This document shows, one piece after another, positions 11,813-61,297 of a DNA stretch of 64,000 nt. The position numbers were made by a program, and so were the translations under genes. Location of the stretch: positions 186,001 through 250,000 of the forward strand of contig JAQGEQ010000142.1 of assembly GCA_034620365.1 (NCBI GenBank). The letters run 5' to 3'. The notes under the pieces were generated by a model. It had not been told where the DNA came from. It did not search any database and worked only from the letters and a program-made list of their open reading frames with translations. The number at the start of each line of letters is the position of its first letter. Position 1 is the first letter of the stretch. Origin of the DNA: Pegea sp. RAD2-039. Lineage: Eukaryota > Chordata > Thaliacea > Salpida > Salpidae.

Positions 11813-13133
11813 TTATTTCATTGGAGGGTGACGAGGATGAATGTTTGGATTATTAAGATGTCTATCTCTCGAAAGTTTCATGCTGAATGTCTGGCCACAT
11901 ACTGGACAGCTGTAAACAAACCCCATATGGATTGACTTAATGTGAACCGAAGCAGAGGCTCTACAGGAGAACAGCTTGTTACAAGGGACACATTCAACTT
12001 TACCATCTTGTCTTGGAGGTCCTATGTAGCTTCTGACATCAAGAGATTGCTCGAAACCCTGCTGCTTATTGAAAGTTTCGTTTTTGTGCTGGTTTTTCAA
12101 AGTTTCGTTCATTACGTATTGATGAAGTTGAAGGCTATGATTTATAGTAGCACCTAGGAACTGTTTTTGATCATGCATAACTTCTACCATGCTCTCTATT
12201 TGATCACGACTTAATTTTCTAATAAACTCTTTTCTTGATCTATATATTGGATATGGACGAAATTGGTTAAGGTAATGTCTTGCTCGGAAATGGGTTTGAG
12301 CTGGATAACTGTAACTAGGAATTCCAGACAATTCAATTTGCCCATTATTCTGCTGAGGTGTTGAGCAGCTGGCGCAAGTTTTTGAAGACATCTTATTGTT
12401 ATGATTATTCTCAGATTGTTGATGGTACAGTGTAGATGTGCTATTAGTACCAGGTGTAACAGTTACTGTTTGGGAGTTGGAATCTTGATGCTGAAGAAAT
12501 TGATAAGGGGGTTTCAGTTGAGATTGTTTTACAACAGTTTTAGAATTGGTTTGATGATTATTCAGAACTTGATTGTGAAGATGATTGAGTCTAGTATCTT
12601 CAACTTGGCTAACCTGTGTTGAATTTTCTTTCATGTGTTTAAACATATTTGGTGTTTGGTGAGACTGTAAGCCCCTAAACTCTGTTTTTGACTGTACAAA
12701 TGATTTTGAGTAAAATGTTGATTGAGGTTACTGGTTTGGAAACTTGCATAATCTGGATATTGGAAGTCATAAAAAAAAGGTTGGATGTTTGAACAAGTAT
12801 TTGTTACGTGATAAGCACAAGAGTAACTTAGTAAACCATATAGATTTTTAAAGCTTCTCCTAGTTACTGAATGGTATTCATTAATTAAACTTGTTACAGC
12901 CTGTTGGTGGCTAAGTGTATTTGTTCTACTAGTTACATTTGCAAATGATAGAGGTTGATGAGTTGTACCACTGGTTTGAAAAAGTTGATTAGAATGATTA
13001 GCAACATTTGAGGAAAGATTATTCACCATTTCATTATTAATGCTTTCATCTTCAGGTTCTGCGATATCTAAATCATGAAACTCACCAAAAAAAACAGTCA
13101 AAGATTTAAAATAACTTTGAACGGCTCTTAAGT
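11813..13133 (-). CDS. C2H2 zinc-finger protein (one frameshift)
   Basis: Unrecognised two-finger C2H2 protein, probably nuclear and DNA- or RNA-binding. The exon begins after a clear acceptor (…ttattttcag) at 13133 and reads LRAVQSYFKSLTVFFGEF…EPEDESINNEM, then a Gln/Asn/Ser-rich region. The frame changes once between about 12735 and 12634, where two frames are open together. The second frame continues through a Gln/Asn-rich stretch and a conserved block PYPIYRS.KEFIRKLSRDQIE to two C-terminal fingers: CVPC-x12-H-x4-H, and CPVC-x12-H-x6-H with an unusually long His spacing. Stop at 11813. Upstream exons and the start codon were not found. The shift may be an assembly error, a very short intron or recent decay. 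Partial copies are at 2462, 22312 and 29286. Confidence 0.7.
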
Positions 13134-14345
13134 CTGAAAATAAAATAACAAATATTTAAAGTAGTTTTTATAAAAAATCAGAAGAATTTATGCGATTTAA
13201 TTTGTGGTAAAAGAAAAAACTTTTTAAAACAATTTATTTGTTTTTGAAAAATTAAAAAAAAAGAAGAATAAACTCGTAGTTTGTGCTTAGCGATTGTAAG
13301 CTAAAATAAATGTCTAAACATTTTAATTTATGTTATTTAGAAATAAAACATAAATTTGAATAATATTCCAAGTACTAAATGAATTTATTTAGATTTTAGA
13401 CGTTGAAACCCGAAGAGAATGTTTTCATAATAAGTTTTAAATAACAACAATAAACCCAAAAAATTTAACCAAAACTTTTTTATTAAAAGAAAAACTGTAG
13501 TCAATAAAAAATACAAAAAGTCATTTAAAAATGAAAAACCTAAATTATGATTCTAATTTTTAATTAATTTATAATATTAAAACTATTTCCACGTATATTC
13601 AGATACAATAAGTTATTTAGATGCCTTATTAATTCTTATGGCACATATTACAAATGTTTGCCTTATTACTATTTAGATTCCTTTATTTACACAAATAGAG
13701 GAAACCATTTGTGACTATCGGAAAGTTTTTTTGGGGAAATAATAAGGAAATTAAACTTTTCACACTATCAATATCTATACTATGTAAACTCATTTACATG
13801 GTATACTTTCTTACAAAACAAGTACTTAAAACAAAACTAAAACGTTTAACAACTTTGCTTTCCTTATTTTTGCCAGAGTGATTACCATAATAGTTTTTAA
13901 AACAAAACTATACGAATAAAGTCACCTTTTTTTTTTGATAGCAAAGTAGGAAAAAAACATATTAAGAAATACCAACAACTTTTAAAAAATCTTTTAAAAA
14001 ACAAGCAAATTTTTTTTTTGATAAAATAATTTGGTTTTGAACTAGTAAACTGATTGATAAAAAGAATAACAAAAGCTAAGAAGAAAGTCTTTTCATTAAA
14101 AAGTGTTATATTAAAAAAATTTAACTGTCAAAAGTTAATAACATTTTTTAACACTTCTCAAACAATTTTAGAACGTCAAAAGGTATTTTGTTATGTAATT
14201 GTTGTATTTTATACATGCAAGGGAGCAAATTACGAGAGAAATGAGAAAAAGAAGTATAAAAGCAAAATATTGACAAAATAAAGAAGCAAAAGTTAAAACT
14301 ACTAGAAGCATTTTAAAAAAGATTTGATACTAACAAAACTGAGTT
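13134..14345. repeat. Non-coding flank duplicated at 29605-30816
   Basis: Colinear with 29605-30816, sharing 'ataacaaatatttaaagtagtt', 'ctcgtagtttgtgcttagcga', 'agctaagaagaaagtcttttc' and 'acgagagaaatgagaaaaagaag'. It lies just upstream of the zinc-finger exon and may contain its upstream intron. No exon was recognised. Confidence 0.7.
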
Positions 14346-15248
14346 TACAAATAATTTGACTAAATTAAAATTTTAGTACAAATAAGTGTTTTCTAAAATT
14401 AAATTCCAAAACTTCTATCTTAAAATTTTATTACATAATCCTTTTTTTCTTGTTATTTTGTAGGTTGTAAAATCAATATAAAATTTTGAATATTTTCTAA
14501 GAATTCTTCAAAACTTAGTTTAAAAAAAAACAATGAACTATTAAAAATAATAAGGCATAAACAGTCACAGTTTCGACTTTTTAGAAAACTTATGCTTGTG
14601 CTAAGAACCTTATAAAATGTACAGACAAACGGATTAATAAAAGATTGTTTTTCAAAGTTTTATTAAATTAGAATAACATCATCATAAGAAATAAATCTTT
14701 TTCCTGAATAGACAATCAAAACCTTTAAACTTTTTTTTTAAGTTTGTTTTAATGTATGATTAATATTAAGTATCTTATGTTTTAATTATTTTAACAAATG
14801 TTGATATTTTTCAAAAGGTAAAAGCCAACTATCAAATCTAATAAACATTTTAATGATTTTCCTTATTTAGAAATATTTTTCTAGTCACTTAAAAAGAACT
14901 CGTTTTATTTTTAATAAAACAAATTTATTTATAGTGTAAATGTCGACAAATAGAATAACGAAATACCAGACAAGTTACTTAAATTTCTAAAAAATATAAA
15001 CAAACTGAAAACAGTTATATTTGACAAAATCAGATTTTTGTTAATAACAGATTTTGTGGACAATGATATTTTTCATCTTCCTCCAACTTCTTCATTAGAC
15101 ATTCCCAACAAGGACTTAAGAAAAAATCCAATAAAAGTACTTATTACCGTAGAGGTTTCTTTTTGAGTCGAAAAGCTCTAAATTGTTTCACTAAAGACAA
15201 TGGGTTTTAGAGGTTTTTTCGACAAGATTTTATTGTATTTTTTTCCAG
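14345..15248. other. Start of single-copy insert; possible exon at ~15050-15165
   Basis: 14345-16815 is absent from the second copy of this locus, whose junction is near 30816. Within it, 15050-15165 is unusually open on the plus strand in two overlapping frames. One reads DIFHLPPTSSLDIPNKD, the other an Arg/Lys-rich sequence containing YYRRGFFLSRKALNCF. At most one can be real, and neither matches a family I know. Confidence 0.25.
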
Positions 15249-15388
15249 ATTTTTCTACAAATCTTAACGTTAAACAAGTAATGGAAGTGAGTATAACAAA
15301 GATAAAGGCGTTCAATGTAAAAGGAAGCTTTACAGCAAAAATAATCGGATCTACGTCTAATGTTGATCAAGCAATAACAAAAATATGA
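15249..15388 (+). CDS. Possible terminal coding exon, unknown
   Basis: Unrecognised. A good acceptor (polypyrimidine tract then 'ttttttccag') ends at 15248. The following frame is open for 46 codons (FSTNLNVKQVMEVSITKIKA, then FNVKGSFTAKIIGS) to a TGA at 15386-15388, with a codon-like composition unlike the surrounding AT-rich DNA. It lies in the 2.5 kb segment present in only one copy of the duplicated locus. It could instead be a fossil exon. Confidence 0.3.
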
Positions 15389-16552
15389 AAGACAATAGTG
15401 AATGTAAATGTATAAAGTTAGCTTTAATAGTTTCTACTAGCTGGCTTTTGTTTTACAATTTTATATCAAATTGTAGGTAGAGTCCTTGGTCTGTGTATCT
15501 TCTAAATACTAAAGCTACCATCACCTACACAATTCAGTTTATACCGTTTCGACATCTTCTGTAGAAACAGTTAGAAACTATGCCCGAAACTTGAATTGTC
15601 ACCACTATCGTTAAAAAGTTTTTAAGAAACTCTGGATTTTAGAAACACTGTAATAGATTACATCTCAATTAAATGTTTATATCAACTTATAGATTAATGA
15701 AATTCTGTATAAAAAATTTGTGTTTGCAAAAATTATTTTTGATTTAAAAGATATTATATTAATCTTCGTGAGGCTCAAAATATCATCACTGAGAAAATGA
15801 TCAAACTATTATGCCCAACTGTCGACTAAGAACAGGATCAAGACATTTTTGCTTAGATAAATGTAGAAATTTTTTTTTAAGAATTTATTTGTTGAGTGTT
15901 TAGTGGCGGAAAATCTTCCTTCTTCCAAAATGGAAAAACGTTTGTTGGAAATATATATGGGTGAAGATTTTAACTGTATTTGCGTATACTCTTGAATTAA
16001 ATAAATATAATTTCGATTGTAGATGATTAAGTTATATATAAATCAGAATGAGTTGGTATTGAAGACTCGAAGCATCTTTAAGATTTTAGATTAATGACTA
16101 AACGGTGATAGTATTTGGTTTAATTTCCTGTAAATATTTAAAAGTTACACTTACTTTCAACTTTTGAAGTAAGTAATTCTAATCAGGTTTTTAAATAATG
16201 GTAATAATAACAAATTACATTTATGAGTATTCTAATGACAAAATAAACGCTATAGAATAAAGATCACACAACAAAATATTTACATACAAAATTAAAATTG
16301 TTTTTACTAATAATAACAATGTTTGCCATTTGTAAAACAAAATGAGCCATAACCAGCCATCTTCAACTCGTGTGCTTGTATTTGATCGTTTCTAAATAGA
16401 TGATACCTCAGTCATAAATCAACTGTAAATTATATTTTAATCTTCTAAGTTAAATCTTTAAAGGTTAAAAAAGTTTATATATTAAGCATCAAATTTATTC
16501 TTATTGACTTCTTATATTTGTACAACTATACTTACGTCACGGGCGGCAAAAA
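15389..16552. other. AT-rich non-coding stretch
   Basis: Nothing supportable. It continues the single-copy insert. Confidence 0.45.
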
Positions 16553-17104
16553 TTATCTTCCAGCCAAGCTGCTATCACTTCCAGCTGAATGTGTAATACC
16601 AATTCGAGAAACATTCAATTGATCAGCTAGTCTTTGTAATCCATACCCTTTACGCTAAGATTTAAACTAATTGTTAAAATCAGGATATATTTTGCAAACA
16701 TCAGAAACTTACATTATCATCTTGTAAAAGTATGTACATCAAATCAATAATCTTTACGAAAATGGAACGAATTAGGATTTGTGACTCTCCTCTACTACCC
16801 GGAAGTGATCTTGCAATGGCTTTCAACAGGAAAAAAAATGTCGTATTGCCTGGTAAAATTCGCAAATTTATTCTGTTAGCTAAGTTTAATTTGTATTTAT
16901 TAGGGGAATAAAGTAATTAGAAATTAATTAAACAAATTGAAATATAATACCAATGGAACACTAGAAATGTGTTACAATCGTTATGGAAAAGCTTTGCCTC
17001 AACAGCTAATCTACGGAAGTCTTCAACATTCACTCCAACAGCTGGAAGCAAAGCAAGATTAATTTTGCCATTTTATTGAAGAAACTCTATGGACTTTCGG
17101 TAGC
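16553..17104 (-). pseudogene. CNOT7/8 (CAF1/Pop2) deadenylase-like pseudogene
   Basis: CAF1 is the DEDD-type nuclease subunit of the CCR4-NOT mRNA deadenylase. Three minus-strand exons match its middle and C-terminal part. Exon 17104-16951 reads SIEFLQ(stop)NGK, then VGVNVEDFRRLAVEAKLFHN and F.VFHW. Exon 16849-16713 follows (QYD block, then LIRSIFVKIIDLMYILLQDDN). Exon 16654-16553 reads KGYGLQRLADQLNVSRIG…SAGSDSSLAG. The family's second and third catalytic Asp (in 'FH.xYD' and 'AGSD') are still present. Disruptions are a TAA replacing a Gln that is CAA-CAA in the 30817-31106 copy, one extra T in a T-run after QYD, and a premature end after AGSD. The N-terminal DxE half was not found. Splice sites fit GT-AG. 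Confidence 0.75.
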
Positions 17105-17189
17105 TTACATCTTCTTTGTATAGGCATTAAAAAATAAGGGTTTTGATTCTAGAACATAAAATTTAAAAATTATGTGAATCATTTCCTTA

Positions 17190-18004
17190 TCTCCTATATC
17201 CATCGTCAGTCGTGACTGGTCTGTCATTTCCTTTTATAGTTGCACTGCTTTGTCATTTAATTTAATTGATCATTAATTATACTACATACATTTTCAGTAG
17301 AGATATATCTTTATTTAGTGATAGCTTTTAAGGATGATTGACGTTACCCTTTCTATAAGTTTTTACTAATTTTTATTTATTGCTCGTTTAAAGAGCAAAT
17401 ATTATTCGAAACTTGTTATGGTAATTTATTTTTAGGAATGATTTACAATGCTGCAGAATTATCGAAAATTGTTTTGTTTACATAAATATCATATAACCCT
17501 TAACAAAACATTTAATGGACAGATGAAAAACTTATTTTTATTTTAAAAGCAGATACAGTGATAACACTTTTGACGTCATTTAAATTTAGTTGAAAGAACT
17601 TTTAAGAAGTATATTCAAAACCTTTATAGTTTCCAAAATTATTGAATTTTTGAAGAGGTTTAGTTTCCGAATGTTTGAATTTAAACTATATATTTCATCT
17701 TAAGTACAAGCAACAAATTCTTATAAAGGGTTTCTTTTTTAAGCAATCTAAAATTAAGTAAAGTTTTTGTATACTGCTGTTTTTTCAGAAAAGATTTGCA
17801 GGAGTTATTTTATAGTTTAAATTAAAATGGTTACAAGAAATTGATGCTTGTGTGTTTTTTGAGTTATTACTTTAATAATATTTTTTCGTAGAGTTAAAAT
17901 CAAAGTACACAGTTTTTTATTACTAAAAATTTTTAGGATATTAAGTTTTAATGCACTCATAATGTAACGTTTAAAAATACTTTTGTGGCCTAGTGCATTT
18001 TCAG
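17190..18004 (+). repeat. Leader block of degenerate receptor exon (copy 1 of 3)
   Basis: Shared with about 22600-23400 and 31190-32012. Landmarks are 'atgattgacgttaccct', 'aaaagcagatacagtgataac…ttttgacgtcattta' and 'taatgcactcataatgtaacgttt'. Each copy carries one TGACGTCA (17571-17578 here). It precedes the DBD exon and may be intron or promoter DNA. Confidence 0.75.
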
Positions 18005-18226
18005 AAAGAAACATAGTATGCTCTATTTGCAACATTGGCAAAAGCCGTTGGCATTATGGTTTCCGATGTTGTGAAGGCTGCAAAAGTTTTTTCTTTCGCT
18101 GGTGGAGTGAGAAGCGAACATTCAATTGTAAAAATGGAGGAAACTGTGACGTAACAACACTTGTGGGTAAACGCTGCCGGTACTACCAGCTAAAAAAATC
18201 TCTTAGTAATGGAATGATCTGGAAAG
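18005..18226 (+). pseudogene. Degenerate nuclear-receptor DBD exon (copy A)
   Basis: A 222-nt exon between an acceptor (cattttcag) and a GTTAGT donor. It encodes a nuclear-receptor DNA-binding domain of the type CSIC…HYGFRCCEGCKSFFFR…CKNGGNC…KRCRYYQLKKSL..GM. Entry phase 1 and the exit inside 'KG' are identical to the DBD exons of the HR4-like genes at 20948 and 34771, so they are paralogues. The first finger keeps all four Cys. The second lacks its last Cys (C-x2-C is C-RY-Y), and the usual 'KCL' is KSL. The next exons found in copy B are absent here, as the sequence diverges about 60 bp past the donor. It is probably not a complete gene and DNA binding is doubtful. Confidence 0.7.
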
Positions 18227-20376
18227 GTTAGTAGAAACAAAGAATTATTGCTTATAATCATTTTTGCATTTAACAGTTTTCCGAATGATGATAAATTAAA
18301 TTGCAACCAAAAATAAAACTAAAAATTTCTCGGTCCATCTGTTTTATCTATTAGCAATTTTATGGTATTTTTCTCTCATTACAAAAAAATAGTCTTTTTT
18401 GCCATTTATAGCTTATACAAACAAAAGATTTTGTGCATAGATAAATAATATTAGAATCAAGCAAGTATTTGACAAGAAAGAAAGCTAAAAAAGTTATTCC
18501 TGTGAAATTACAGATGATAGATAAATATTTGATCATATTTTTACTTTGGAGCCCTTTAAAAGAAATTTTCTAAAAGATTTGAAAACAATTTTACTATTTC
18601 TTTATGGTTAAACGTTGTAAAGAAATTAAATTTTCCAAACTTTTAATTCCCTTTTTTAAGTACTAAAATTTGTTTAATGTTTTAAAGTAAAGTTATATGC
18701 TTTGAATATTCACATTTATTTTGTTTCCAACTATGAATGGAGTTTTAAATACTAATAACTAAATAAAGTAGAACGTTTCACTGTCTATATGATGTCATAA
18801 GGAGTATTAATTTACATATGCGCACATTATGGTGTTAGCACATACCCCAGACAAGATATAATTATAACCGGAAACTTCAATCATGTGAGTCATCAAAACG
18901 TAACGCTAATTGCTTTTGAGTCATTTCATCTCAGTTAAAAATGCGCGAAATGCAATATTCAGAAGTAAATTGAATTTTTGTGAGGTTTGTTGTAATCAGA
19001 TATATATCTGAGATCGGATATCCTCTAAATTTTTTTTTAAGTTTTTTTTTTCGTATCGAAAAATATTAAGCTTTTTGGTTCAGTTCTATACAACGTTACA
19101 TAAGTAGCTGTTTAAATAACATAGACACAATCACACGTTCGCGCACACGCACAGCCTAATTGTATGTTGATAAAAAGCTACAAATTGAATAAAAGCAGAA
19201 TTTCATTAAATAATTCAAAACTATTTTAAGAAGTTTGTAGAAATTATTATCAGGAAAATTACTTGCTTTCGATAACGCTGTAAAAAAACTCCTTAAACGT
19301 TTTGAAAAACTCAACATCTTATTATATGAGGGTTCAAACAATGAAAATTTGTACCTTAAAGATATTAAATTATCATGGTGATTGTATTTTATATAAAACT
19401 AATTTTGCCTTGTGATGATGATTTCGTTTACTTTTTTCAATTTCTCTTTTTCAATATTTACATTTTATGTTTTATTTATATTTTCAATAACCTTTCAATT
19501 GATCTGAAATAAATTCAAATGAATAAAACAATTTTCTTAGATAAAAATTTATTTTTTTGTTACCATCTTAGCTCACAATAAATATGAAGAAAACAAATAA
19601 ATATCGCAATTAATTTTTCTGATTGTGAAATTATCATATTAATGATTTAATTAAAAGTGTGGGTAAAAGTATTTTATCTAATAAAGTTAATTGCCTTAAT
19701 TTCTTTTTTATAAGAGGCTTATCCAAATTGACTTAACCTTTTTGAGTTATTCAAAGTAAAAAAGAATATTATTTTTTACTATTTTGTGAAGATAACTTGA
19801 ATTATAGTTTAAAAGTCAGGGAGTAAAAAACATCGAGCGAAATATGTCAGTGACGTACTTCAAACGTAGTAACTCTCCTTTTTTTCACCCCAAATGATAT
19901 CTCTCGAAAAAAGCGAGTTCTAAAAACTTTTTCTTTTGAATCTCTCGTTTTTAATATATCTAGACGTACAGAACTCTAAAATCATTCATTGTAGTCTTGA
20001 GGTATTAACCAAAGAGAAGTTTTGATGATTGTAAAGAGAGTAATTGAGAAGTATGTTCACGAAATATTTGGCTGGTTTTGGTTAGATCATTCACAAGTCA
20101 GCCATTTTAATTGCATGAAAAATTACTTAATCAGTTTAAAACTTTTTTTTATCTGATTTTTTTGCAAGATATATGAATTTTGATTGTTATATTTTTTATC
20201 ATTCTAGTTTATTTGATGTGATGAATTTATTTTTTTATAACGTATGCGTATAAATTGCTAACTTTTACAATTTATTTGAGATTTTTTTTTGAGTTTTAAA
20301 TAATTGACTAAATAGCGTTTTTCAGGTTTTAGAAATTGTTTATTAAAATTAATTTTATCATATTGTTAAAATTACA
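18227..20376. repeat. Upstream DNA of HR4-like gene 1, duplicated at 32056-34199
   Basis: Long, high-similarity pair with 32056-34199. Shared features include 'tatgatgtca' with 'cacattatggtgtta', a CA-rich stretch near 19125-19155, 'tttcaccccaaatgatatctctcg', and an acceptor-like 'tttttcagg' (20320-20330) just before the coding region. Around 20025-20130 a frame reading IVKRVIEKYVHEIFG is conserved in both copies and could be an upstream exon, but it meets stops. It probably contains the promoter and 5' UTR of the receptor genes. Confidence 0.6.
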
Positions 20377-21905
20377 ATTTCATCTACTTCATCAAGAAAT
20401 CTAGAAGAACCAGAGTCGTTACAACCCAGCAGTTGTGCTTCTTACCAGGAGGCTTCACCTTATATACCAAGTATTTTTAATTCGTTTATTTACCCTTCTC
20501 AAGCTAGTTCAACACAGCCACTTTTCGGCAGTTTTATGAATTTAAATTACTTGCACAGTAATATCAGACTAAACAGCAACCCTGGTCAGACGTTGAGTGT
20601 AGCACCCGGTAACAGTAGATGGTTATATAGTGGTCAAGAGACGGATTTTCATCCACCACAACAAGGGCTAATGTTGCAGGGTTTGCAAAACTGTACATAT
20701 CCCATTAGTGCTCCTTATCTTAATAAGCCATACCAATTTTCAATTCGCTTTGAAAATGAGGGGATTTTTTCAGACTCCGGTCCTATGGTGAAGAATTCAA
20801 CCTTAAATCAGAGGGAACCTTCGTTTCAAACTTCGACATCTGACCAAATGACTAGTAAAAAAGATAAGAAAGATGTGAAAAAATCAAACGGTTAGTCAGA
20901 ATAATTGGTATTTCTTCAACTACTCACTTTTTTACTTTAATGTTTAGAGTCCGTAGACAAACAACACAAATGTCTTGTTTGTGGAGATAACTCTACTGGA
21001 TTTCATTACGGTATTCGGACTTGTGAAGGCTGTAAAGGTTTTTTCAGGCGTACGATTATAGAAAAAAACGTTTACTATTGTAAACAAAAAAAAGTTTGTC
21101 CCATAAATCAACATCAGCGTAACATGTGCCAGTATTGTCGTCTTAAAGCCTGCCTCAAGTGTGGAATGAATCGAAAAGGTATGTTAAAAGTTAATTTACT
21201 TTATGCTCTAAACTTCTAATGATTTCACAGGAGTGCGTGAAGATGGAAAGCCAGGTGGACGTATTATAATAGGTCCAGTTGAAGTATGTATATTTTATTA
21301 ATATTATCACTATACTGGTGTTACATCTCCTTTTATTTGTGAAGGACCCTTCTCTAGAGATGGACGACATTTTCTCTGGAAAAATTTGGGAAACTGATGA
21401 GCATAGCTTAGCAGTAAATCAAGATTCTGGTGATAATTCTACAAGCTCAAATTTGAACAGTGATACAAATCAGCGTCCTACAACTTCGAAGGAGCTTTCC
21501 CACGATCGTTGCTCAAGAAGCGGTGTAAAACGCAAGAACAGCAAAAAACAACCTGTAACTAGAAGAAACTTTTTTATAAAAAATATATTGAAGCACGAAA
21601 ATGTCAAACCAAGATCTTCCGATGAGCCTGGTTCTTCTGGCGCTTCACGTGGACTTACCTCAGGTATTTCTAGTACTGTACGAACGACTAGTTTTTCAAT
21701 TAAACAAATTAAAATTTCAGGCCTACCTGCAACTTTAGATATGCTTCATGCTTCAAACAACCCATTTCTATGCTTTAATTCTGCTACTCAACCAAAACGT
21801 CGTAGAGAACAGCCCCTGGATCTTCGAAGAAGTACATTAAACCGTACTGCTGCTGAAATGGATGCTGTAGAAGTGTTGGTGTCTAGATTCAATTATCACA
21901 CTTAG
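20377..21905 (+). CDS. NR6A/HR4-like nuclear receptor 1, chimeric, no LBD
   Basis: Predicted nuclear DNA-binding receptor of the GCNF/HR4 (NR6A) type. Exons: 20377-20890, 20948-21178, 21231-21283, 21345-21905, all GT-AG. The DBD has eight zinc Cys, P-box CEGCKG and CQYCRLKACL..GMNRKG. A 53-nt exon follows with REDG.PGGR..IGPVE, the C-terminal extension diagnostic of NR6A, then PSLEMDDIFSGK, resembling the hinge start of GCNF. The triplet at 20377 aligned with the ATG of the paralogue at 34200 is ATT, so translation must start elsewhere. The first in-frame ATG at 20536 gives about 399 aa. The last 23 codons, stop and 3' flank are shared with the degenerate receptor at 23588-24250 instead of the paralogue, so the gene is an in-frame chimera. 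No ligand-binding domain is present. QPLDLRRS resembles CtBP-binding motifs. Confidence 0.8.
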
Positions 21906-22300
21906 TCAAGGTCATTCGAACTTTCACTATACGGCTCTGAGTAACTATTTGTTAATCTCGTGCGGAAAATTGTAAACATTGAACCATTTGACGTTTGTCC
22001 TACTATTAAACTTTATTTAAAGCAAAAAAGTGAATTTGATTGTTAGTTTGATTTTATTATCACAGCAGTGTAGGATGCAACTTTTTTGTTAAAAAGTAAA
22101 GTATGGTATGAGGGGTTAGGTACCAGCAAAGATAAATTTTCAATTATATTTATGTTATTTTATAAAACTATATGCGATGGACGGTACATGTAAGAACTTA
22201 AGTAAACAAGTTAACAATTAAACAATCTGACGACGTAAATTATATTCCTAAATTTATTAAAAATCATGAAGTTAACGTTTGGAACACAATTTTCCAAAAA
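21906..22300 (+). repeat. 3' flank shared with receptor at 24250
   Basis: About 21834-22255 and 24178-24605 are close copies ('tcaaggtcattcgaactttcac', 'gaggggttaggtaccagcaaa', 'gatggacggtacatgtaaga'). They cover the common coding tail, stop and 3' flank, with ATTAAA near 22005. The homology ends close to the zinc-finger fragment here and near 24610 in the other copy. Confidence 0.75.
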
Positions 22301-23587: not shown

Positions 23588-24250
23588 AAAGAAACATAGT
23601 ATGTTCTATTTGCAACATTGGAAAAAGCCGTTGGCATTATGGTTTCCGATGTTGGGAAGGCTGCAAAAGTTGTTTCTTTCGCTGGTGGAGTGAGAAGCGA
23701 ACATTCAATTGTAAAAATGGAGGAAATTGTGACGTAACAAAACTTGTGGGTAAATGCTGCCGGTACTACCGGCTAAAAAAATCTCTTAGTAATGGAATGA
23801 TCTGGAAAGGTTAGTAGAAATAAAGAATTATTGCTTATAATCATTTTTGCATTTAACTGTTATCCGGATGAATAAAGCACAACGAGGAAGAAACAAAACA
23901 ATTTCCTCATTTCATGTAAGTTACCTTTTTGTTTGTTGAAATAAAATTGATACTTTATTTATCATGTTTAGAACTCGCCAGAAACAATAAAACTCTTGCT
24001 AAAAGGTGAACTTTTTATTAAAGATGAAGATGACACTGCTAATATGTTTTTATTAGCCCGTGCTTGTGCTAACAGTGATTATGCTTCCACTGCTTGCAGT
24101 AGTGAGAAAAATTCCATAACATTAGCCCGCACTCCTGCTGAAATGGCTGCACCTGAAAGTATTGACCAAAATACTATAACATTAAACCGTACTGCTGCTG
24201 AAAGGGATGCTGTAGAAGTGTTGGTGTCTAGATTCAATTATCACACTTAG
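23588..24250 (+). CDS. Degenerate NR6A-like receptor (copy B), likely decaying
   Basis: Three plus-strand exons with GT-AG borders: 23588-23809 (DBD), 23878-23915 and 23972-24250, joined in frame. The 38-nt middle exon reads QRGRNKTISSFH, matching the GGRNKS.GPV extension typical of GCNF. The next begins SPETIKLLLKGELF, matching the hinge start of the HR4-like genes. The DBD resembles copy A, but the third Cys of finger 1 is Trp (CWEGCKSC), the last Cys of finger 2 is missing (CRYYR), and another change gives GKCC. Zinc binding is therefore probably lost in both fingers. The tail has two similar LNRTAAE-like repeats and ends VEVLVSRFNYHT, shared with receptor 1. No upstream exon with ATG was found. 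It is either a pseudogene or a non-canonical family member. Confidence 0.6.
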
Positions 24251-24610
24251 TCAAGGTTATTCCAGCTTTGACTAAACGGCTCTGAGTAACTATTTGTTAA
24301 TCTTGTGCGGAAAGTTGTAAACATTTAACTACTTTAGGTTTGTCTTACTATTAAACTTTATTTAAAACAAAAACTTGAATTCGATTGTTAATTTGATTTT
24401 ATTATCAGAGCAGTGTAGGAAAGCAACTTTTCTGTTAAAAAGTATGGTATGAGGGGTCAGGTACCAGCAAAAATAAATTTTCAATTATATTTATGTTATT
24501 TTATAAAACTATATGCGATGGACGGTACATGTAAGAATTTAAGTAAACAAGTTAACAATTCAACGAACGGACGACGTAAATTATATTCCTAAATTTAATA
24601 AAATCATGAA
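24251..24610 (+). repeat. 3' flank of receptor copy B (pairs with 21906-22255)
   Basis: Copy of the receptor 1 3' flank, as described there. The pairing ends at about 24608. Confidence 0.7.
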
Positions 24611-29125: not shown

Positions 29126-29285
29126 CCCAATTAATTGGTTAAAATGAAAGTAATGTCACAATGAATCAAGTGATAAAAGTTGGTGAGAATTCTAGTTGAT
29201 TAGGATTTACAGGAGTTGGAACAAGGCCTGAAAATAATTTTTAATAATGCATTCGTTAAAGCTAAACATATTGGCTCATATTTAC

Positions 29286-29604
29286 CTTTTTGAATTCATC
29301 TTCAGATTCACTTGAGCTGGAAGAGCTACTCCAGTTACTAAATGGTACTCATTATCTAAACTTGTTACAGCCTGTTGGTGGCTAAGTGTATTTGTTCTAC
29401 TAGTACCATCCGCGAATGATAGAGGTTGATGAGTTGTACCACTGGTTTGAAAAGGTTGATTAGAATGATTAGCAACATTTGAGGAAAGATTGTTCACCAT
29501 TTCATTATTAATGCTTTCATCTTCAGGTTCTGCCATATCTAGAGCTTGAAGCTCACCAAAATAAACAGCCAAAGATTTAAAATAACTTTGAACTGCTCTT
29601 AAGT
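29286..29604 (-). pseudogene. 5' exon of second C2H2 zinc-finger gene copy
   Basis: Copy of the first 90 or so codons of the 11813-13133 gene: acceptor 'attttcag' at 29605, then LRAVQSYFKSLAVYFGELQA, MAEPEDESINNEM and the Asn/Gln/Ser-rich block. After NEY..VT it diverges from copy 1 and reaches a donor-like AAAAG|GTAAAT at 29286. In a neighbouring frame the end reads a Ser-run plus ESEDEFKK. The finger-encoding part is missing to the left, where the CCAAT array lies. It is either a truncated pseudogene or one exon of a differently spliced gene. Confidence 0.6.
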
Positions 29605-30816
29605 CTGAAAATAAAATAACAAATATTTAAAGTAGTTCTTATAAAAAATCAAAGGAATTTATGCGATTTATTTTGTGGTAAAAAAAAGGATTTTAAAATA
29701 ATTTATTTTTTTTGAAAAATCTTTTAAAAACAATAATAAACTCGTAGTTTGTGCTTAGCGAATGTAAGCAAAAGAAAATGGATAAACATTTTAATTTTTG
29801 TTATTTAGAAATAAAACATATATTTGAATAATTTTCCAAAGTTGTAAATGAATTTATTTTGGTTTTAGACGTTGACACCCGAAGTGAATGTTTTCATAAT
29901 AAGTAAAAATAACAACAACAACAATCCCCAAAAGTCTAACTAAAACTTTCTTACTGAAAGAAAAACTCTAGTCAATGAAAAATACAAAAAGTCATATAAA
30001 AATTGAAAACCTAAAATTTTATTCTGATTTTGAAACTTATTTTTTAATATAAAAACTATTTTTACATATATTCAGACACAATATGCCATTACGATGGCTT
30101 ATTAATTTTTTTGGCAGAAATTAGAATTATTTGCATTTTTGCCATTTAAATTGCTTTTTGTATACACAAATCAAAGAAATAATTTATGACTATTGGAAAG
30201 TTATTTGGCCAATTATGCAAGAAATTAAACTTTTCAAACTGTCAATATCTATACTAAGTAGATTTATTTATATGGTATACTTTCTTAGGGAACAAGTAAT
30301 TAGAACAAAACTATAAAATTTATCAACTTTGCTTTGCTTATTTTTGACTAAGTGATTAACAGAATATTTTTTAAAACAAAACTATACGAATAAAGTGAGC
30401 AAACATTTTTATGAAAATTAAATAGGAAAAAAATACATATAAAGAAATACCAACGCTTTTTAGAAAATCATCCAATAAACAAACAAATTTTTTTTGAAAA
30501 AATAATTTTGACTTGAGCAAGTTACCTGATTAATAAAAAAATAACCAAAGCTAAGAAGAAAGTCTTTTCATTAAAAAGTGTCATGTTAAAAAAAATATCT
30601 GTCAAAAGTTAATAACATTTCTTAACACTGCTCAAACAGCTTTAGATCGTTAAAACAATATTTTATTATATAATTGTTGTATTTTATACATACAAGGGAG
30701 CAAATTACGAGAGAAATGAGAAAAAGAAGTATAAAACAAAAATATTGACAAAATAACGAAACAAAAGTTAAAACTATTTAAAGGATGTTAAAAAAATCTA
30801 ACAAAACTAAGTTTAC
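29605..30816. repeat. Non-coding flank, copy of 13134-14345
   Basis: Second copy of the zinc-finger gene upstream flank. It joins directly to CAF1 pseudogene sequence at about 30816, so the 2.5 kb segment 14345-16815 of copy 1 is absent. Confidence 0.7.
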
Positions 30817-31106
30817 AATTGCTTTCAACAGGAAGAAAATGTCGTATTGCCTGGTAAAATACGCAAATTTATTCTGTTAGCTAAGTTTAATTTGTATTTA
30901 TTATGGAAATAAAGTAATTAAAAATTAATTAAACAAATTGAAATATACATACCCATAGAACACTAGAAATGTTACAATCGTTATGGAAAAGCTTTACCTC
31001 AACAGCTAATCTTCGGAAATCTTCAACATACACTCCAACAGCTGGAAGCAAAGCATGATTATTTTTGCCATTTTGTTGAAGAAACTCAATGGACTTTTGG
31101 TAGCTT
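30817..31106 (-). pseudogene. CNOT7/8 (CAF1)-like pseudogene, second copy
   Basis: Copy of two of the three exons at 16553-17104. It is better preserved in places: CAA-CAA where copy 1 has CAA-TAA, and ATTTTCTTCC without the extra T, giving QYDIFFLLKA. However, a 2-bp deletion (CACA to CA) breaks the frame in HNDCNTF, and the 3' exons are cut off at 30816. Both copies are therefore dead but by different lesions, so the shared ancestor may have been intact. Confidence 0.7.
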
Positions 31107-31189
31107 AGATAATATTTGCATATGCATAAAAAAATAAGGGTTCTGATTCTAGAACATATAATTTAAAAATTATGTGAATCATTTCCTTA

Positions 31190-32055
31190 TCTCCTATATT
31201 CATCCTCAGTCGTGACTGGTCTGTCATTTCCTTTTAGAGTTTCACTGTTTTGTCATTTAATTTGATTGATCATTAATTATACTACATACATTTTCAGTAG
31301 AGATATATCTTTGTTTAATGATAGCTTTTAAGGATGATTGACGTTACCCTTTCTATAAGTTTTTACTAATTTTTAGTTACTGCTCGAATAAAGAGCAAAT
31401 GTTATTCGAAAATTGGTAATTTACTTTTAGGAATGATTTACAGTGTTGCAGAATTATCGAAAATTGTTTTGTTACATAACTATCATAGGAACCTTAACAA
31501 ACCATTTAATGGACAGATGAAAAACTAATTTTTATTTTAAAAGCAGATACAGTGATAACGCTTTTGACGTCATTTAACTTTTGTTGAAAGAACTTTTAAG
31601 AAGTATATTCAAAACGTTTATAGTTTCCAAAATTATTAAATTTTTGAAGATGTTTGATGAATTGAACCGTTTACTTTTACTTTTTGTTTTTTGAAGAGAT
31701 TTAGTTTCCGGATGTTTTAATTTAAACTACTTATTTCATCTTAAGTACAAGGAACAAATTCTTATAAAGGGTTTCTTTTTTAAGCAATCTAAAAATTATG
31801 ATAAGTAAAATTTTGTATACTGCTGTTTTTTCATACAAGAATTGCAGGATTTTTTATATTTAAAATTGAAAAATAACAGTTACAAAAATTAATGCTTCTT
31901 GTAGTTATTTATTTAAGAATATTTTTTCGTAGAGTTAAAATCAAAGTACACAGTTTTTTATTACTAAAGATTTTTAGGATATTAAGTTTTAATGCACTCA
32001 TAATGTAACGTTTACCGACCAAAAAAATCTCCTAGTAATGGAATGAACTGGAAAG
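31190..32055 (+). pseudogene. Receptor leader block with DBD exon deleted (copy C)
   Basis: Third copy of 17190-18226 (TGACGTCA at 31565-31572). After 'taatgcactcataatgtaacgttta' about 210 bp are missing, removing the acceptor and nearly the whole DBD. Only the last dozen codons (KKSPSNGMNWKG) and the GTTAGT donor remain at 32013-32055. It is a clear internal-deletion pseudogene. Confidence 0.75.
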
Positions 32056-34199
32056 GTTAGTAGAAACAAAGAATTATTGCTTATAATCATTTTTGCATTT
32101 AACAGTTTTCCGAATGATGATAAATTAAATTGCAACCAAAAATAAAACTAAAAATTTATCGGTCCATCTATTTTATCTATTAGCAATTTTCCGGTATTTT
32201 TCTCTCATTACAAAAAAATACTCTTTTTTGCCATTTATAGCTTATACAAACAAAAGATTTTGTGCATAGATAAATAATATTAGAATCAAGCAAGCATTTG
32301 ACAAGAAAGAAAGCTAAACAATGTTATTCCTGTGAAATTACAGATGATAGATAAATCATGATAGATAAATAAAAGAGCCCTTTAAAAGAAATTTTCTACA
32401 AGATTTGAAAACAATTTTACTATTTCTTTATGGTTAAACGCTATAAAGAAATTAAATTTTCCAAACTTTTAATTCCCTTTTTTAAGTTCTAAAATTTGTT
32501 TAATGTTGTAAAGTAAAGTTATATGCTTTGAATATTCACATTTATTTTGTTTCCAACTATGAATGGAGTTTTAAATACTAATAACTAAATAAAGTAGAAC
32601 GTTTCACTGTCTATATGATGTCACAAGGAGTATTAATTTACATATGCGCACATTATGGTGTTAGTACATACCCCAAACATGATATGGTTATAATCGGAAA
32701 CTTCAATCATGCGAGTCATCAAAACGTAACGCTAATTGCTTTTGAGTCATTTCATCTCAGTTAAAAATGCATGAAATGCAATATTCAAAAGTAAATTTCA
32801 TTTTTGTGAGATTTGTTTTAATCAGATATACATCTGAGATCTGATATCTTCTAAATTTTTTTTAAACTTTTTTTTTCTGTATCGAAGAATATTAAGCTTT
32901 TTGGTTTAATTCTATAAAAGGTTACATCAGTAGCTGTTTACATAACATAGACACAATCACACGTTCGCACACACGCACAGCCTAATTGTATGTTGATAAA
33001 AGCTACAAATTGAATAAAAGCAGAATTTTATTAAATAATTCAAAACTATTTTAAGAAGTTTGTAGAAATTATTATCAGGAAAATTACTTGCTTTCGATAA
33101 CACTGTAAAAAAAACTCCTTAAACTTTTTGAAAAACTCAACATCTTAATATATGAGGGTTCAAACAATGAAAATTTGTACCCTAAAGATATTAAATTATC
33201 ATGGTGATTGTATTATATATAAAACTAATTTTGCCTTGTGATGATGATTTCGTTTACTTTTTTCAATATCTCTTTTTCAATATTTACTTTTTATGTTTTA
33301 TTTAAATTTTCAATAACCTTTAAATTGATCTGAAATAAATTCAAATGAATAAAACAATTTTCATAGATAAAAATTTATTTTTATGTGAACATCTTTGCTC
33401 ACAATAAATATGAAGCAAACAAATAAATATCGCAATTAATTTTTCTGATTGTGAAATTATCATATTAATGATTTAATTAAAAGTGTGGGTAAAAGTATTT
33501 TATTTAATAAAGTTAAGTGCCTTAATTTCTTTATTATAAGAGGCTTATCGAAATTGACTTAACCTTTTTGAGTTATTCAAAGTAAAAAAGAATATTATTT
33601 TTTACTATTTTGTGAAGATAACTTGAATTATAGTTTAAAAGTCAGGGAGTAAAAAACATCGAGCGAAATATGTCAGTGACGTACTTCAAACGTAGTAACT
33701 CTCCTTTTTTTCACCCCGAATGATATCTCTCGAAAAAAGCGAGTTCTAAAAACTTTTTCTTTTGAATCTCTTGTTTTTAATATAAATAGACGTACAGAAC
33801 TCTAAAATCATTCATTGTAGTCTTGAGGTATTAACCAAAGAGAAGTTTTGATGATTGTAAAGAGAGTAATTGAGAAGTATGTTCACGAAATATTTGGCTG
33901 TTTTTGGTTAGATCATTCACAAGTCAGCCATTTTAATTGCATGAAAAATTACTTAATTAGTTTAAACTTTTTTTTATCTGATTTTTTTGCAAGATATATG
34001 AATTTTGATTGTTATATTTTTTATCATTCTAGTTTATTTGATGTGATGAATTTTTTTTTATACCTTATGCTTATAAAGTGCTAATTTTAACAATTTATTT
34101 GAGATTTTTCTTGGAGTTTTAAATAATTTACCAAATACGGTTTTTTAGGTTTTATAAATTTTCTTATAAAATTATTTTTATCCTAATCTTAAATTTACA
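32056..34199. repeat. Upstream DNA of HR4-like gene 2 (copy of 18227-20376)
   Basis: See 18227-20376. High similarity throughout. It includes a possible upstream open frame at 33848-34084 (IVKRVIEKYVHEIFG…) and an acceptor-like 'ttttttagg' near 34142-34150. The promoter of the receptor gene is probably in this block. Confidence 0.6.
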
Positions 34200-36022
34200 A
34201 TGTCATCCACCTCATCGAGGAATCTAGAAGAACCAGAGTCGTCACAACCCAGCAGTTCTGCTTCTTACCAGGCGGCTTCATCTTATATACCATGTATTTT
34301 TAATCCGTTTATTTACCCTTCTCAAGCTAGATCAACACAGCCACATTTCGGCAGTTTGATGTACTTAAATTACTTGCACAGTAATATCAGATCAAACAGA
34401 AACCCTGGTCAGCCCTCAAATGTGGCACCCGGTAACAGTAGATGGTTATATAGTGGTCAAGAGACGGATTTTTATCCACCACAACAAGGGCTAATGTTGC
34501 AGGGTCTGCAAAACTGTACATATCCCATTAGTGCTCCTTATCTTAATAATCCATACCAATTCCCAATTCGCTTTGGATATGAGGGGATTTTTTCAGCCTC
34601 CGGTCCTATGGTAATGAATTCAGCCTTAAATCAAAGGGAACCTTCATTTGAAACATCAACATCTGACCAAATGACTAGAAAAAAAGAAAAGAAAGAAATG
34701 AAAAAATCAAATGGTTAGTCAGAACAAACGGTGTTTTTCCGACTAATCACTTTTTTACTTTAATGTTTAGAGTCCGTAGACAATCAAAACCAATGTCTTG
34801 TTTGTGGAGATGATTCTACTGGATTTCATTACGGTATTCGGACATGTGAAGGCTGTAAAAGCTTTTTCAGGCGTACGATTATAGAAAAAAAAGTTTACTA
34901 TTGTAAACAAAAAAAAGTTTGTCCCATAAATCAACATCAGCGTAACAAGTGCCAGTATTGTCGTCTTAAAACCTGCCTCAAGTGTGGAATGAATCGAAAA
35001 GGTCTGTTAAAAGTTAATTTACTTTATGCTCTAAACTTCTAATGATTTCACAGGACTGCGTGAAGATGGAATGCCAGGTGGACGTTTTATAATAGGTCCT
35101 GTTGAAGTATGTATATTTTATTAATATTATCACTATACTGGTGTTACATCTCATTTTATTTGTAAAGAACCCTTCTCTAGAGATGGACGACATTCTCTCT
35201 GGAAAAATTTGGGAAACTGATGAGCATAGCCTAGCAGTAAATCAATTTTCTGGTGATAATTCTACAAGCTCAAACTTGAACAGTGATACAAATCAGCGTC
35301 CTACAACTTCTAAGGAGCTCTCCCACAATCTTTGCTCAAGAAGCGGTATAAAACGCAAGAATAGCAAAAAACAACTTGTAACTGGAAGAAACTTTTTTAT
35401 AAAAAACATATTGAAGCACAAAAATGTCAAACCAAGATCTTCCGATGAGCCTGGTAATTCTGGCGCTTCACGTGGACTTACCTCAGGTATTTCTAGTACT
35501 TTACGAACGATCAGTATTTCAATTAAACAAATTCAAAATTCAGGCCTTCCTGCAACTTTACATATGTTTCCTGCTTCAAACAATTCATTTATATGCCCTA
35601 ATTCTGCTACTCAACCAAAACGTCGTAAAGAAAAGCCCCTGGTTCTTCAAAGAAATACATTAGTAAATAATACTCCAGTTACTGGTTCTGGTTACTCACC
35701 TACTAGCATTCCTACTCGGAATAGAGGCAGCAAGTATGTTTTTTATTTTTCTTCTTTTACAAACCTTACTAATTTTGATTTGTTAAATTACAGCAGCCCC
35801 TTTGTACTTACTGGATTAGGCACTCCGATTGAAAACAAGAACAGTTTGCGTCAATCGGATGAAATTAAAATAATGCAGAGTTATTACAACATCCCTTCTT
35901 CTTCATTAGCTTCCTCTGTCAGCTATTCTGCTGCTGCTTGTGCTGGTGATGCTACTGCTGATCAAATTGATTTTTCTAAGGAGCGACCCTTGGATCTTCG
36001 AACAAGAAAATCGAATTATTAA
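34200..36022 (+). CDS. NR6A/HR4-like nuclear receptor 2, no LBD
   Basis: The best-preserved receptor. Exons: 34200-34713, 34771-35001, 35054-35106, 35168-35733, 35794-36022 (530 aa). All introns are GT-AG and 52-61 nt. The last is 60 nt, so the frame also stays open if retained, and it has a TACTAAT branch-point-like motif. ATG at 34200 follows 'aatttaca'. A Ser/Pro/Tyr/Gln-rich N-terminus (about 170 aa, ending in a Lys-rich stretch) precedes a DBD with eight zinc Cys and P-box CEGCKS, CQYCRLKTCL..GMNRKG, then REDGMPGGR..IGPVE (NR6A-type extension) and PSLEMDDILSGK. The remaining ~270 residues are Ser/Asn-rich with basic patches, and no ligand-binding domain is recognisable. The C-terminus SKERPLDLRTRKSNY holds a PLDLR motif like CtBP-binding PxDLS sites, recalling the LBD-less Knirps group. 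AATAAA occurs at 36063 and 36118. Confidence 0.88.
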
Positions 36023-37150
36023 AGTTGTTACATATAAGAAGCAAGCTTGAATTGTGTGGGTTAATAAAGATGTTTGTAGAAATGCTGGAATATTTGTACT
36101 GACGTTGTAAATCATCGAATAAATACATTTGTAACAAGTAAAAATTGTTGTTGTAAAATCGTCAGGTCCTTTTTCATATAAGAAATATACTTTTATGAAA
36201 AATGTTTGTCACAAAAGTTTATTCATGTCTCAATATTTATTCAGTTTATTCAGCACTTCGTTACAGGTGACAGCTGTTATAGCGAACAAGCAAAATAGTA
36301 TGAATTCGATAGTAATATGACTTTTGGAGAATAGTAAAATGGTAAAAACGTAACATCTTTGGTGATGTAGAGAAAATAAGAACAACTGAATGGTCGTTGA
36401 AATTATCGAATTGTAATTTTATGTTTAATTATCAGAATTTTAAATAGCTCGAATAAAAATTGATGTATTTACTGCAAGTATATAGATACATATATAAGTT
36501 GCAGCAGTTTGAAGCATAAGAGAAAAATAAGATATTTTATATATAAATTAAAAAAGAGAAAAAAAGAAAAATAAATAGTGAGTTAATAATGAAGATAATC
36601 TCAAACTTTTGGAATATACCACCAAAGTATGTTCAGCTCCTCAAAGTATCTTTAAGGTCCCGAAATTAATGTTCAAAACTCAACAGAAAAAAGTTTTAGA
36701 ATTAATTTAGAATTACAGATTATTTTTAATGTTTCAGAAAGTTTTGAAAATTGTTTAGAGTGAAGAATACTTTAAAAGTCTTAAGAGTTTTCGGAAAATG
36801 TTTATTCTAGAAGGTTCGAACCTGTGGTAGGGCTCCCACAAATATACTAAGGTTTCGAGGATACATTTAGCAATTTAGAATAATCATCATCATTTACGCC
36901 ATAATCGTCATCAACGCGATGGAAGTTGAAATACCAAAATCATCATCAGAAAGATGTCTTTAACCTCCGGATTCAAGTTGAACAGATAACTTCCGCTTTT
37001 GATAAAGGTCGCTGCAAAACAATCACTAGATGACGTCATCGCTTCACATGAAGACCCGAAGATATGACTTTGAAGACGCAGCAGCGAAATATCGTGTATT
37101 ACTTGTGATAAATTATTCTATCTAGATAAGAAATTGATTCAATTTTTTTG
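36023..37150. other. 3' flank and intergenic DNA
   Basis: AATAAA at 36063-36068 and 36118-36123 are candidate poly(A) signals for receptor 2. Beyond is AT-rich DNA without a gene. One TGACGTCA at 37031-37038 lies in a short, less AT-rich patch (36880-37100) resembling the CRE repeat family. Confidence 0.5.
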
Positions 37151-54356: not shown

Positions 54357-54828
54357 TTAGAAATCAAATATATTTATTGTTTGTTTGAAGTTGTAGGTTG
54401 ACATCAAAAAGGTCGTATCCTCCTTCGGTATTTTCAAGATTAAATCGATAGTCTTGGCGAGAAAAAAAGGAGAGAGATTTAACCAGGGTTCACTAGTACA
54501 AGGTGAATTAATCCATTCTTCAAACAACTTGGTTTCATCTTGAGGAAGATTACGATTCAACATAAGATCTTTAGCTGGCTTCTCAGCTTCTGACAACATG
54601 TTATCAGTTTGATTTGGAGGAGTAGATACTGAAACCGGAGAAGAAGCTACATCTTTGGTTAAGATAACTACAACAATAGGACCAGATTTCGACTTCAAAT
54701 GTGCTTGATAAGAGCCTTTCTTCGATAAGTCTGGAGTGGGAACTTGAAGTTCGATTCCAGAAGGAGCTTTAATTGCTAGTAATGCATCACCAGAGAAGAA
54801 ATGAAAAAGATCTTCATGAGTAACATAT
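54357..54828 (-). pseudogene. E2F4/5-like pseudogene, 5'-truncated
   Basis: Copy of the 3' half of the intact gene at 60449-61297. It begins inside the marked box (YVTHEDLFHFFSGDALLAIK, APSGIELQVPTP) immediately after an in-frame TGA at the breakpoint (about 54828), and runs through LPQDETKLFEEWINSPCTSE. One extra T in the NLSPFF T-run then shifts the frame. The DNA encoding the pocket-protein-binding end (DY.FNLE…GYDLFDV) is still present but read out of frame. It lacks the DNA-binding and dimerisation domains and is dead as an E2F. Confidence 0.85.
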
Positions 54829-60448: not shown

Positions 60449-61297
60449 TTATTGATGGTTTACTTGAGGTTGTGGGTTGACATCAAAAAGGTCGTATCCT
60501 CCTTCGGTATTCTCAAGATTAAACCGATAGTCTTGGTGAGAGAAAAAGGGGGAAAGATTTAACAAGGGTTCACTAGTACAAGGTGAATTAATCCATTCTT
60601 CAAACAACTTGGTTTCATCTTGAGGAAGATTACGATTCAACAAAAAATCTTTAGCTGGCTTCTCAACTTCTGACAACATTTTATCAGTTTGACTTGTAGG
60701 AGTAGATACTGAAACCGGAGAAGTAGCTACATCTTTGTTTAAGATAACAACATCAAAAGGACCAGAATTCGACTTCAAATTTGCTTGATAAGAGCCTTTT
60801 TTCGATGAGTCTGTAGTGGGAACTTCAATTTCTATTCCAGAAGGAGCTTTAATTGCTAGTAATGCATCACCAGAGAAGGAATGACTAAGATCTTCATGAG
60901 TAACATATGATAACTTTTTATTATCATCATCAACCATTACATTCCGCATGCTTTGTTTCATGTATTTAATAGCATCGTCCAGATCAGCTTCTTTTTCATC
61001 AAGACTTTGAAGATCTGACTTAAGATTTGAAATTATTGAAACATCACTTTCACGATCAGGACTTGCACCTATCCATTGGACACAATTTTGTGATGTTTTT
61101 TTGAGCAGTCCTATTCCTTCTAAGACATTTATTATGTCATAGATTCGTCGTTTTTGTTTGATTTGTAACTGCTTGGCTGCTATTCTAAGATCCACTTTAC
61201 CATCTGGAGCATTCCTTATGTAATTAACAAACTTAGTTGTTAAAACTCCCAAAGAATTTTCATGTCTGCTACTTGTTGGTACAACATCAGCCATCAC
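60449..61297 (-). CDS. E2F4/5-like transcription factor
   Basis: Complete, intronless, 282 aa cell-cycle transcription factor that would bind E2F sites as a dimer with DP and be restrained by pocket proteins. Residues about 13-78 form the winged-helix DNA-binding domain (SLGVLTTKFVNYI, then QKRRIYDIINVLEGIGLLKK with the RRIYD recognition signature). Residues about 85-120 form a leucine-zipper-like dimerisation helix. About 128-190 is the marked box (YVTHEDL…GDALLAIKAPSG.EIEVP, then KSNSGP). A short acidic linker leads to the C-terminal pocket-binding motif (NLSPFFSHQDYRFNLENTEG, GYDLFDV), the E2F4/5 form. There is no cyclin-A-binding N-terminus, which fits E2F4/5 and not E2F1-3. It is shorter than vertebrate E2F4/5 because the Ser/Pro linker is reduced. 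The stop codon overlaps an AATAAA. The start at 61297 is followed by a second Met. Confidence 0.93.
   Translation of the reverse strand: MMADVVPTSSRHENSLGVLTTKFVNYIRNAPDGKVDLRIAAKQLQIKQKRRIYDIINVLEGIGLLKKTSQNCVQWIGASPDRESDVSIISNLKSDLQSLDEKEADLDDAIKYMKQSMRNVMVDDDNKKLSYVTHEDLSHSFSGDALLAIKAPSGIEIEVPTTDSSKKGSYQANLKSNSGPFDVVILNKDVATSPVSVSTPTSQTDKMLSEVEKPAKDFLLNRNLPQDETKLFEEWINSPCTSEPLLNLSPFFSHQDYRFNLENTEGGYDLFDVNPQPQVNHQ

Follow-up and report, generated by a model that had tools for sequence, protein, structure and literature searches.

Receptors of the NR6A type (GCNF/NR6A1 and HR4/NR6A2) recognize AGGTCA half-sites or DR0 elements and bind the latter as homodimers. In the mouse, NCoR and SMRT interact with the ligand-binding domain (LBD) of GCNF, and removal of this LBD abolishes the early embryonic function of the receptor, mimicking loss of the DNA-binding domain (DBD) in the early embryo, as summarized in PMC3676325. 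On that account, a receptor without an LBD must repress in some other way, compete passively or be inactive, and an LBD-less form need not repress at all. Nuclear receptors that lack an LBD are few. They are classed as NR0A whatever their descent, and the cases named in PMC2774871 come from NR1, with which Knirps groups, and from NR4, with which ODR-7 groups best. The gene described here, which we call gene A, comes instead from NR6A, and we found no report of LBD-less NR6A paralogues in the titles and abstract beginnings of the open-licence papers that our searches listed. Gene A is a natural experiment on the share of NR6A function that sits outside the LBD, a question left open after the deletion of the mouse LBD.

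Gene A lies on the forward strand at positions 34200..36022 of the window, by which we mean the whole 64,000-nucleotide stretch analysed (C79:186001-250000; mean GC about 28%), in an assembly of 105.7 Mb and 387 contigs that was searched throughout and whose nuclear receptors mark it as animal. The complete five-exon model proposed in the initial annotation held up: the coding sequence of 1593 nt is open over 530 residues, all 4 introns run from GT to AG, the TAA stop occupies 36020-36022, and both AATAAA hexamers lie no more than 101 bases past it (Table 1). The DBD (residues 179-247) gave the sole Pfam match (cut-off E 1) and is intact, keeping 9 of the 9 cysteines of the NR6A1 DBD chain 5krb. 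That chain is also its closest solved structure (E 6.8e-33, with COUP-TF1 behind at 3.6e-27), with 51 of 80 residues identical over the DBD and the C-terminal extension (CTE). The extension was likewise correctly recognized as NR6A in type. The label 'NR6A/HR4-type' is sound as to NR6A descent, but HR4 is less apt a name than GCNF, as the extension has the NR6A1/GCNF form GGR..IGPV, from which, we assume, that of arthropod HR4 differs.

Table 1. Features of gene A, its duplicated surroundings and related fragments in the window (positions counted from the first base of the window).
Feature	Position	Strand	Evidence
Exon 1: start codon, then N-terminal region rich in Ser, Asn and Pro; 171 codons + 1 nt	34200..34713	+	Open frame; donor GTTAGT; phase 1, as in exon 1 of the C42 NR6A gene
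Exon 2: C4 zinc-finger DBD, P-box CEGCKS	34771..35001	+	PF00105, E 3.1e-27; 5krb (NR6A1), E 6.8e-33; phase 1, as in the C42 gene
Exon 3: CTE REDGMPGGRFIIGPVE, NR6A type	35054..35106	+	Alignment to the C42 NR6A extension and following segment, score 96, 0/5000 shuffles
Exon 4: hinge, equal to C42 NR6A exons 4 and 5 fused (one intron lost)	35168..35733	+	BLASTP and exon borders
Decayed ancestral corepressor-motif site PLVLQ	35636..35650	+	Matched in alignment by PMDLR (C42 NR6A) and PLDLR (paralogue B)
Exon 5: 76 unique C-terminal residues, then stop	35794..36022	+	Starts at the phase-2 junction shared with C42 exon 6
C-terminal PLDLR, candidate CtBP-binding site	35987..36001	+	Regular expression and shuffles, P ~0.001
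AATAAA poly(A)-signal hexamers (two)	36063-36068, 36118-36123	+	Read in the sequence
Segmental duplication unit A (partner 16811-21839)	30813..35662	+	BLASTN of the window against itself; the two main pieces are 87% and 94% identical
Paralogue B (exons 1-4 at 20377-20890, 20948-21178, 21231-21283, 21345-21905)	20377..21905	+	Same exons 1-4 as gene A
Small NR6A-derived DBD fragment, RWW type, second-finger cysteine lost	18016..18216	+	PF00105 and sequence
Another small gene of RWW type, decayed: a cysteine missing from the second finger, acceptor of the CTE exon TG in place of AG	23599..24250	+	PF00105 and sequence

The same genome holds a full-length NR6A gene, reached by the DBD search and BLASTN of the loci, on the minus strand of contig C42 (locus L018). 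It has nine exons and encodes 947 residues, and over the DBD and CTE it shares 62 of 80 residues with 5krb. Gene A and the C42 gene have the intron phases 1,1,0,2 in common, as read from the exon lengths, and residues 117-447 of gene A align to the C42 protein at 38% identity (BLASTP, E 1e-49); the P-box is CEGCKG in the C42 protein and CEGCKS in gene A. Exons 6-9 of the C42 gene make up the region where an LBD is expected. Pfam gave no match in this region up to E 10, and in a PDB search 10 of the 15 listed matches were ERR gamma LBD chains in one register, all of them weak (E 0.27-0.33), with an unrelated leucine-rich-repeat chimera on top (E 0.21). We assign the region as a divergent LBD on the strength of its position in the gene, of what we take to be a resemblance to GCNF and of these weak PDB matches. 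The last exon of gene A is the counterpart of C42 exon 6, the start of this region. Gene A is an old paralogue of the C42 gene that keeps the N-terminus, DBD, CTE and hinge of its parent and stops where the assigned LBD of the parent begins. As to the sequence of exon 5 itself, no significant similarity to the C42 protein emerged, whether to the tail (score 33, shuffle P 0.17; 0.085 when just the end of the exon is compared), to the hinge (score 35, P 0.10) or to the LBD (score 22, P 0.89).

No LBD was detected for gene A, in agreement with the first description of the locus. A search with an LBD profile, downstream and genome-wide, had been proposed as a check; PF00104 returned 23 matches at E<=10 across the assembly, none of them on C79, but the LBD region of C42 NR6A escapes this profile as well, which makes it weak proof of absence. 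With the C42 LBD region itself as the query, the whole assembly gave four matches at E<=10, all on C42. When the whole C42 protein was compared by tblastn with the window, its 10 kb flanks and a further copy of the paralogue B region on contig C148, the DBD, the CTE and the 30%-identical hinge of genes A and B were recovered, while LBD matches stayed at chance level (best E 5.9); a laxer tblastn of the same sequences with the C42 LBD and tail alone was also at chance level (best E 0.39). The hinge match sets the demonstrated sensitivity at about 30% identity, and an LBD exon more divergent than that could escape. It is nevertheless very improbable that the LBD of gene A lies in a missed exon or beyond the assembly. 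A divergent LBD could slip past a profile that is blind even to that of the parent, and on C148 the copy of the B region, which neighbours gene A in the window, does run to a contig end; against this stand the confinement of own-LBD matches to C42, the chance-level tblastn result beside a recovered hinge, and the fact that exon 5 is followed by a stop codon and poly(A) signals. The C-terminus does not hinge on splicing of the last intron either, since intron 4 (60 nt) is open and in frame and the C-terminus is identical whether it is spliced or retained. With a DBD present and no LBD detected, gene A has the make-up of an NR0A receptor and, though NR6A by descent, not that of a full NR6A receptor.

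What exon 5 does carry, outside the folded DBD, is a PLDLR motif near the very end of the protein (residues 520-524, within ERPLDLRTRKSNY). The initial annotation had pointed out this motif and its presence elsewhere in a paralogue, both of which are correct: P[LM]DLR lies at residues 423-427 of paralogue B (21813-21827) and also at 448-452 of C42 NR6A (segment EEQPMDLRKST). These last two occupy one aligned hinge site, which reads QPMDLRKS in C42 NR6A and QPLDLRRS in paralogue B and has become KPLVLQRN in gene A. In shuffled protein, P[LMIV]DLR arises in about 0.1% of cases for gene A, 0.06% for B and 0.3% for C42 NR6A, and the looser P.DL[RST] in 2%, 2% and 6%, which makes a chance occurrence in gene A unlikely. 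The alignments suggest that this type of motif was inherited from the hinge of the parent, was lost at the old site in gene A and is found again at a new, C-terminal place. The convergent gain of the motif that had been proposed is therefore unsupported, as P[LM]DLR pre-exists in the parental hinge and in B and only its C-terminal position is new. Of the broader proposal, convergent evolution toward a constitutive repressor, one part does have parallels, since Knirps and ODR-7, of other subfamilies, are likewise without an LBD; constitutive repression is a predicted function.

A gene at C6:488394, recognised by eye, is one that we take to be CtBP-like from its likeness to the human protein. 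In MITR and the class IIa HDACs, CtBP binding is ascribed to a motif of the form P-X-D-L-R (PMC7912504). We consider the best explanation of gene A to be that its product acts as a ligand-independent, CtBP-tethering repressor at NR6A sites, a reading that we hold with evenly balanced confidence. The product would be nuclear and would recognize NR6A-type sites (AGGTCA half-sites or DR0) independently of ligand, with target sites possibly shifted by the change of the P-box from CEGCKG to CEGCKS; having no LBD surface for NCoR or SMRT, it would rely on PLDLR to recruit CtBP for repression. The retention and renewal of a CtBP-type motif favour such tethering.

A five-residue motif such as PLDLR can be inert, and its presence may be incidental. 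In that case the product of gene A might merely occupy NR6A sites, or dimerise through its DBD, and so block the full-length receptor in a dominant-negative manner. We regard this as somewhat unlikely. GCNF itself is thought to compete with activating receptors for sites (PMC3676325), and the RWW-type relatives described below keep little besides DBD and CTE (one unit read so). Against this reading, the motif is present in three NR6A-derived contexts, and the P-box change from G to S relative to the parent means that the targets of the two proteins may differ.

The pattern of selection bears on this alternative as well as on tethering. Between gene A and C42 NR6A, the DBD and CTE have a dN of 0.23 and a dS of 1.90, and 53 of 80 amino acids are identical where 3000 neutral simulations reached 46 at most. 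These domains have clearly diverged from the parent under constraint, part of which belongs to the parent's own branch. Toward paralogue B, in contrast to this constraint, the tail is near neutral, which favours passive competition or decay.

Paralogue B lies in the partner of the segmental duplication that includes most of gene A. It has ATT at the position of gene A's ATG, no LBD was found in it, and it is a chimera whose 3' end has been replaced by the end of a small-DBD gene of the RWW type: its last codons and 3' flank (window 21834-22270) match 24179-24610 of an RWW-type gene at 91.6%. The copy on C148 (C148:173461-183460) runs parallel to window 12105-22093 at 96.6% identity and also has ATT and not ATG; it probably represents an allele of the B region, or else one more copy. 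About 8% of positions differ between the gene bodies of A and B, and the distances among the three copies vary by region. Upstream of gene A (window 32013-34012) there are 79 differences between A and B, 64 between A and C148 and 80 between B and C148 over 1987 sites. Across 34013-35660 gene A stands apart, with 133 and 127 differences against 35 for B and C148 over 1648 sites, except around the DBD, where gene A and C148 are the closest pair (2/200). These region-wise distances suggest gene conversion among the copies.

Such an unstable duplicated region might also hold a gene A that is a decaying copy without function, recently relaxed and perhaps unexpressed. The lack of the ATG in paralogue B and the C148 copy, the swapped 3' end of B and the lost cysteines of the RWW copies in the window, one of which has also lost a splice acceptor, would all fit, but gene A itself has an intact reading frame, start codon, set of splice sites and pair of poly(A) signals. 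Over 1290 coding bases, A and B differ by 99 substitutions and by no stop where 5.3 were expected (P 0.003; 4.5 expected when simulated from B, P 0.007), and A and C148 by none against 5.5 (P 0.002). The A-B gene body has no indels, whereas the 3387 bp upstream contain 17 events (P ~0.0007; 0.0015 for the exons alone), a deficit that extends over the introns and so may be partly regional. Codon changes between A and B point the other way: silent codons number 23 against 21.2 expected (P 0.36), which is neutral-like. Between A and C148 silent codons are slightly in excess, 28 against 21.0 (P 0.043), and the 25 substitutions between B and C148 carry no signal (5 silent against 5.5 expected, no stops, P 0.20). 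With dN/dS at 0.61 for A-B and 0.55 for A-C148, these near-neutral A-B changes indicate weak constraint, or diversification, over much of the protein. Against B, the reading frame appears to be protected while amino-acid change appears near neutral. The absence of stops and indels where several would be expected, together with the history of constraint on the DBD, makes decay an unlikely account, and CtBP tethering is still the reading we prefer.

Other genes are multiplied or fragmentary on the same contig, which looks like an amplicon of transcription-factor copies. E2F4/5-like genes account for 4 of the 15 E2F_TDP matches of the genome, with frames of 286-307 aa, at window 60452-61309 (minus strand) and at C79:261032, 268528 and 278180; window 54360-54827 (minus strand) is a CC-MB fragment only. 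Window 11816-13155 (minus strand) contains Gln/Asn-rich frames with two C2H2-like matches under the Pfam cut-offs, partly duplicated at 29285-29626, and 5770-6636 (minus strand) is part of the reverse transcriptase of a retroelement, to which 2490-2843 is related. Elsewhere in the assembly, the 18S rDNA matches at C1:6131841, C125:283894 and C278:8943 differ from C27:5872 by two changes that all three have in a universal segment, and the C1 copy scores 856 bits in Rfam against 1567 for C27, as rDNA fragments outside the main locus. COX1 gave no match in the assembly at E<=0.001, and none of nine telomere-repeat motifs occurred in 18 contig-end stretches.

Gene A and its close copies are not the only LBD-less relatives of NR6A in this genome. 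One class, which we call RWW, comprises 22 DBD-search matches with a common frame of 81-87 aa, counted outside the window and its C148 copy; 13 of the 22 stand in tandem on six contigs, two or three on each and 4154-4167 bases apart. The copies that were read (C150, L025) have a separate CTE exon in 3 of 3 cases, and one of these CTEs, in a spliced reading GGRNKTILPVDKSPETVSRLLSGEFF, aligns to the C42 NR6A extension with a score of 80 (0/5000 shuffles). Both RWW copies in the window, at 18016 and 23599, look decayed. A second class is intronless and comprises 11 loci, nine of which were read (L026-L034; on C48, C183, C204, C212, C238, C341 and C223); the nine frames, of 401-641 aa, end in [IV]LNGKR, the post-CTE segment of the parent. 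The extensions of two intronless loci score 43 and 45 against that of C42 NR6A (0 and 1 of 5000 shuffles), compared with 10 and 18 for two other receptors of the genome, controls that are weak in that one has 13 residues and may be partly intron. PxDL-like motifs are repeated in all nine intronless copies and PLDLR occurs in five, with N-terminal repeats that carry EPLDLRT, EPSDLET and EPFNLST; Pfam found no LBD in the one protein scanned (L026). A DBD tree, with 7 of its 14 inner branches open and long-branch warnings, leaves the deep branches and both classes unplaced, so that their NR6A origin rests on the extension alignment.

The LBD-less NR6A-derived matches number about 36 in all (A/B type 3, RWW 22, intronless 11), of which 15 were read and some are perhaps alleles. 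The parallel tandem-array and intronless types suggest that the LBD was shed repeatedly, or once before a wide radiation. We tentatively raise the possibility, more doubtful than the reading of gene A itself, that NR6A seeded an explosive expansion of LBD-less factors in three recombining, fast-evolving classes, perhaps an arsenal, germline or sex-linked, of repressors that would tether CtBP or compete at NR6A sites. If this were true, it would be a nuclear-receptor counterpart of the expanding zinc-finger repressor families.

An explosive, lineage-specific expansion is also known from the supplementary nuclear receptors of nematodes, which derive from HNF4 and mostly keep their LBD, whereas the source here is NR6A and no LBD was seen. 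MITR/HDAC9 and the class IIa HDACs share the P-X-D-L-R motif with gene A, as outlined in PMC7912504, but are not DNA-binding receptors. Gene A resembles NR6A receptors in its DBD, its CTE, its post-CTE segment and the exon phases of the C42 gene, and differs from them in having no detected LBD, a unique C-terminus with PLDLR and a P-box of CEGCKS, not CEGCKG. With Knirps, KNRL and EGON of arthropods and ODR-7 of C. elegans (NR0A), it has in common a DBD without an LBD, and with Knirps also a CtBP-type motif, Knirps recruiting CtBP through PMDLS according to PMC9890238. The Knirps family has a DBD of NR1 descent, whereas that of gene A is nearest to NR6A1 and is followed by an NR6A extension. 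Gene A differs from the NR0A receptors, finally, in coming from NR6A, whose full-length member in this genome already has the motif in its hinge, and with that parent at hand each step can be followed: the protein was cut short where the LBD region starts, one intron disappeared and the corepressor motif turned over.
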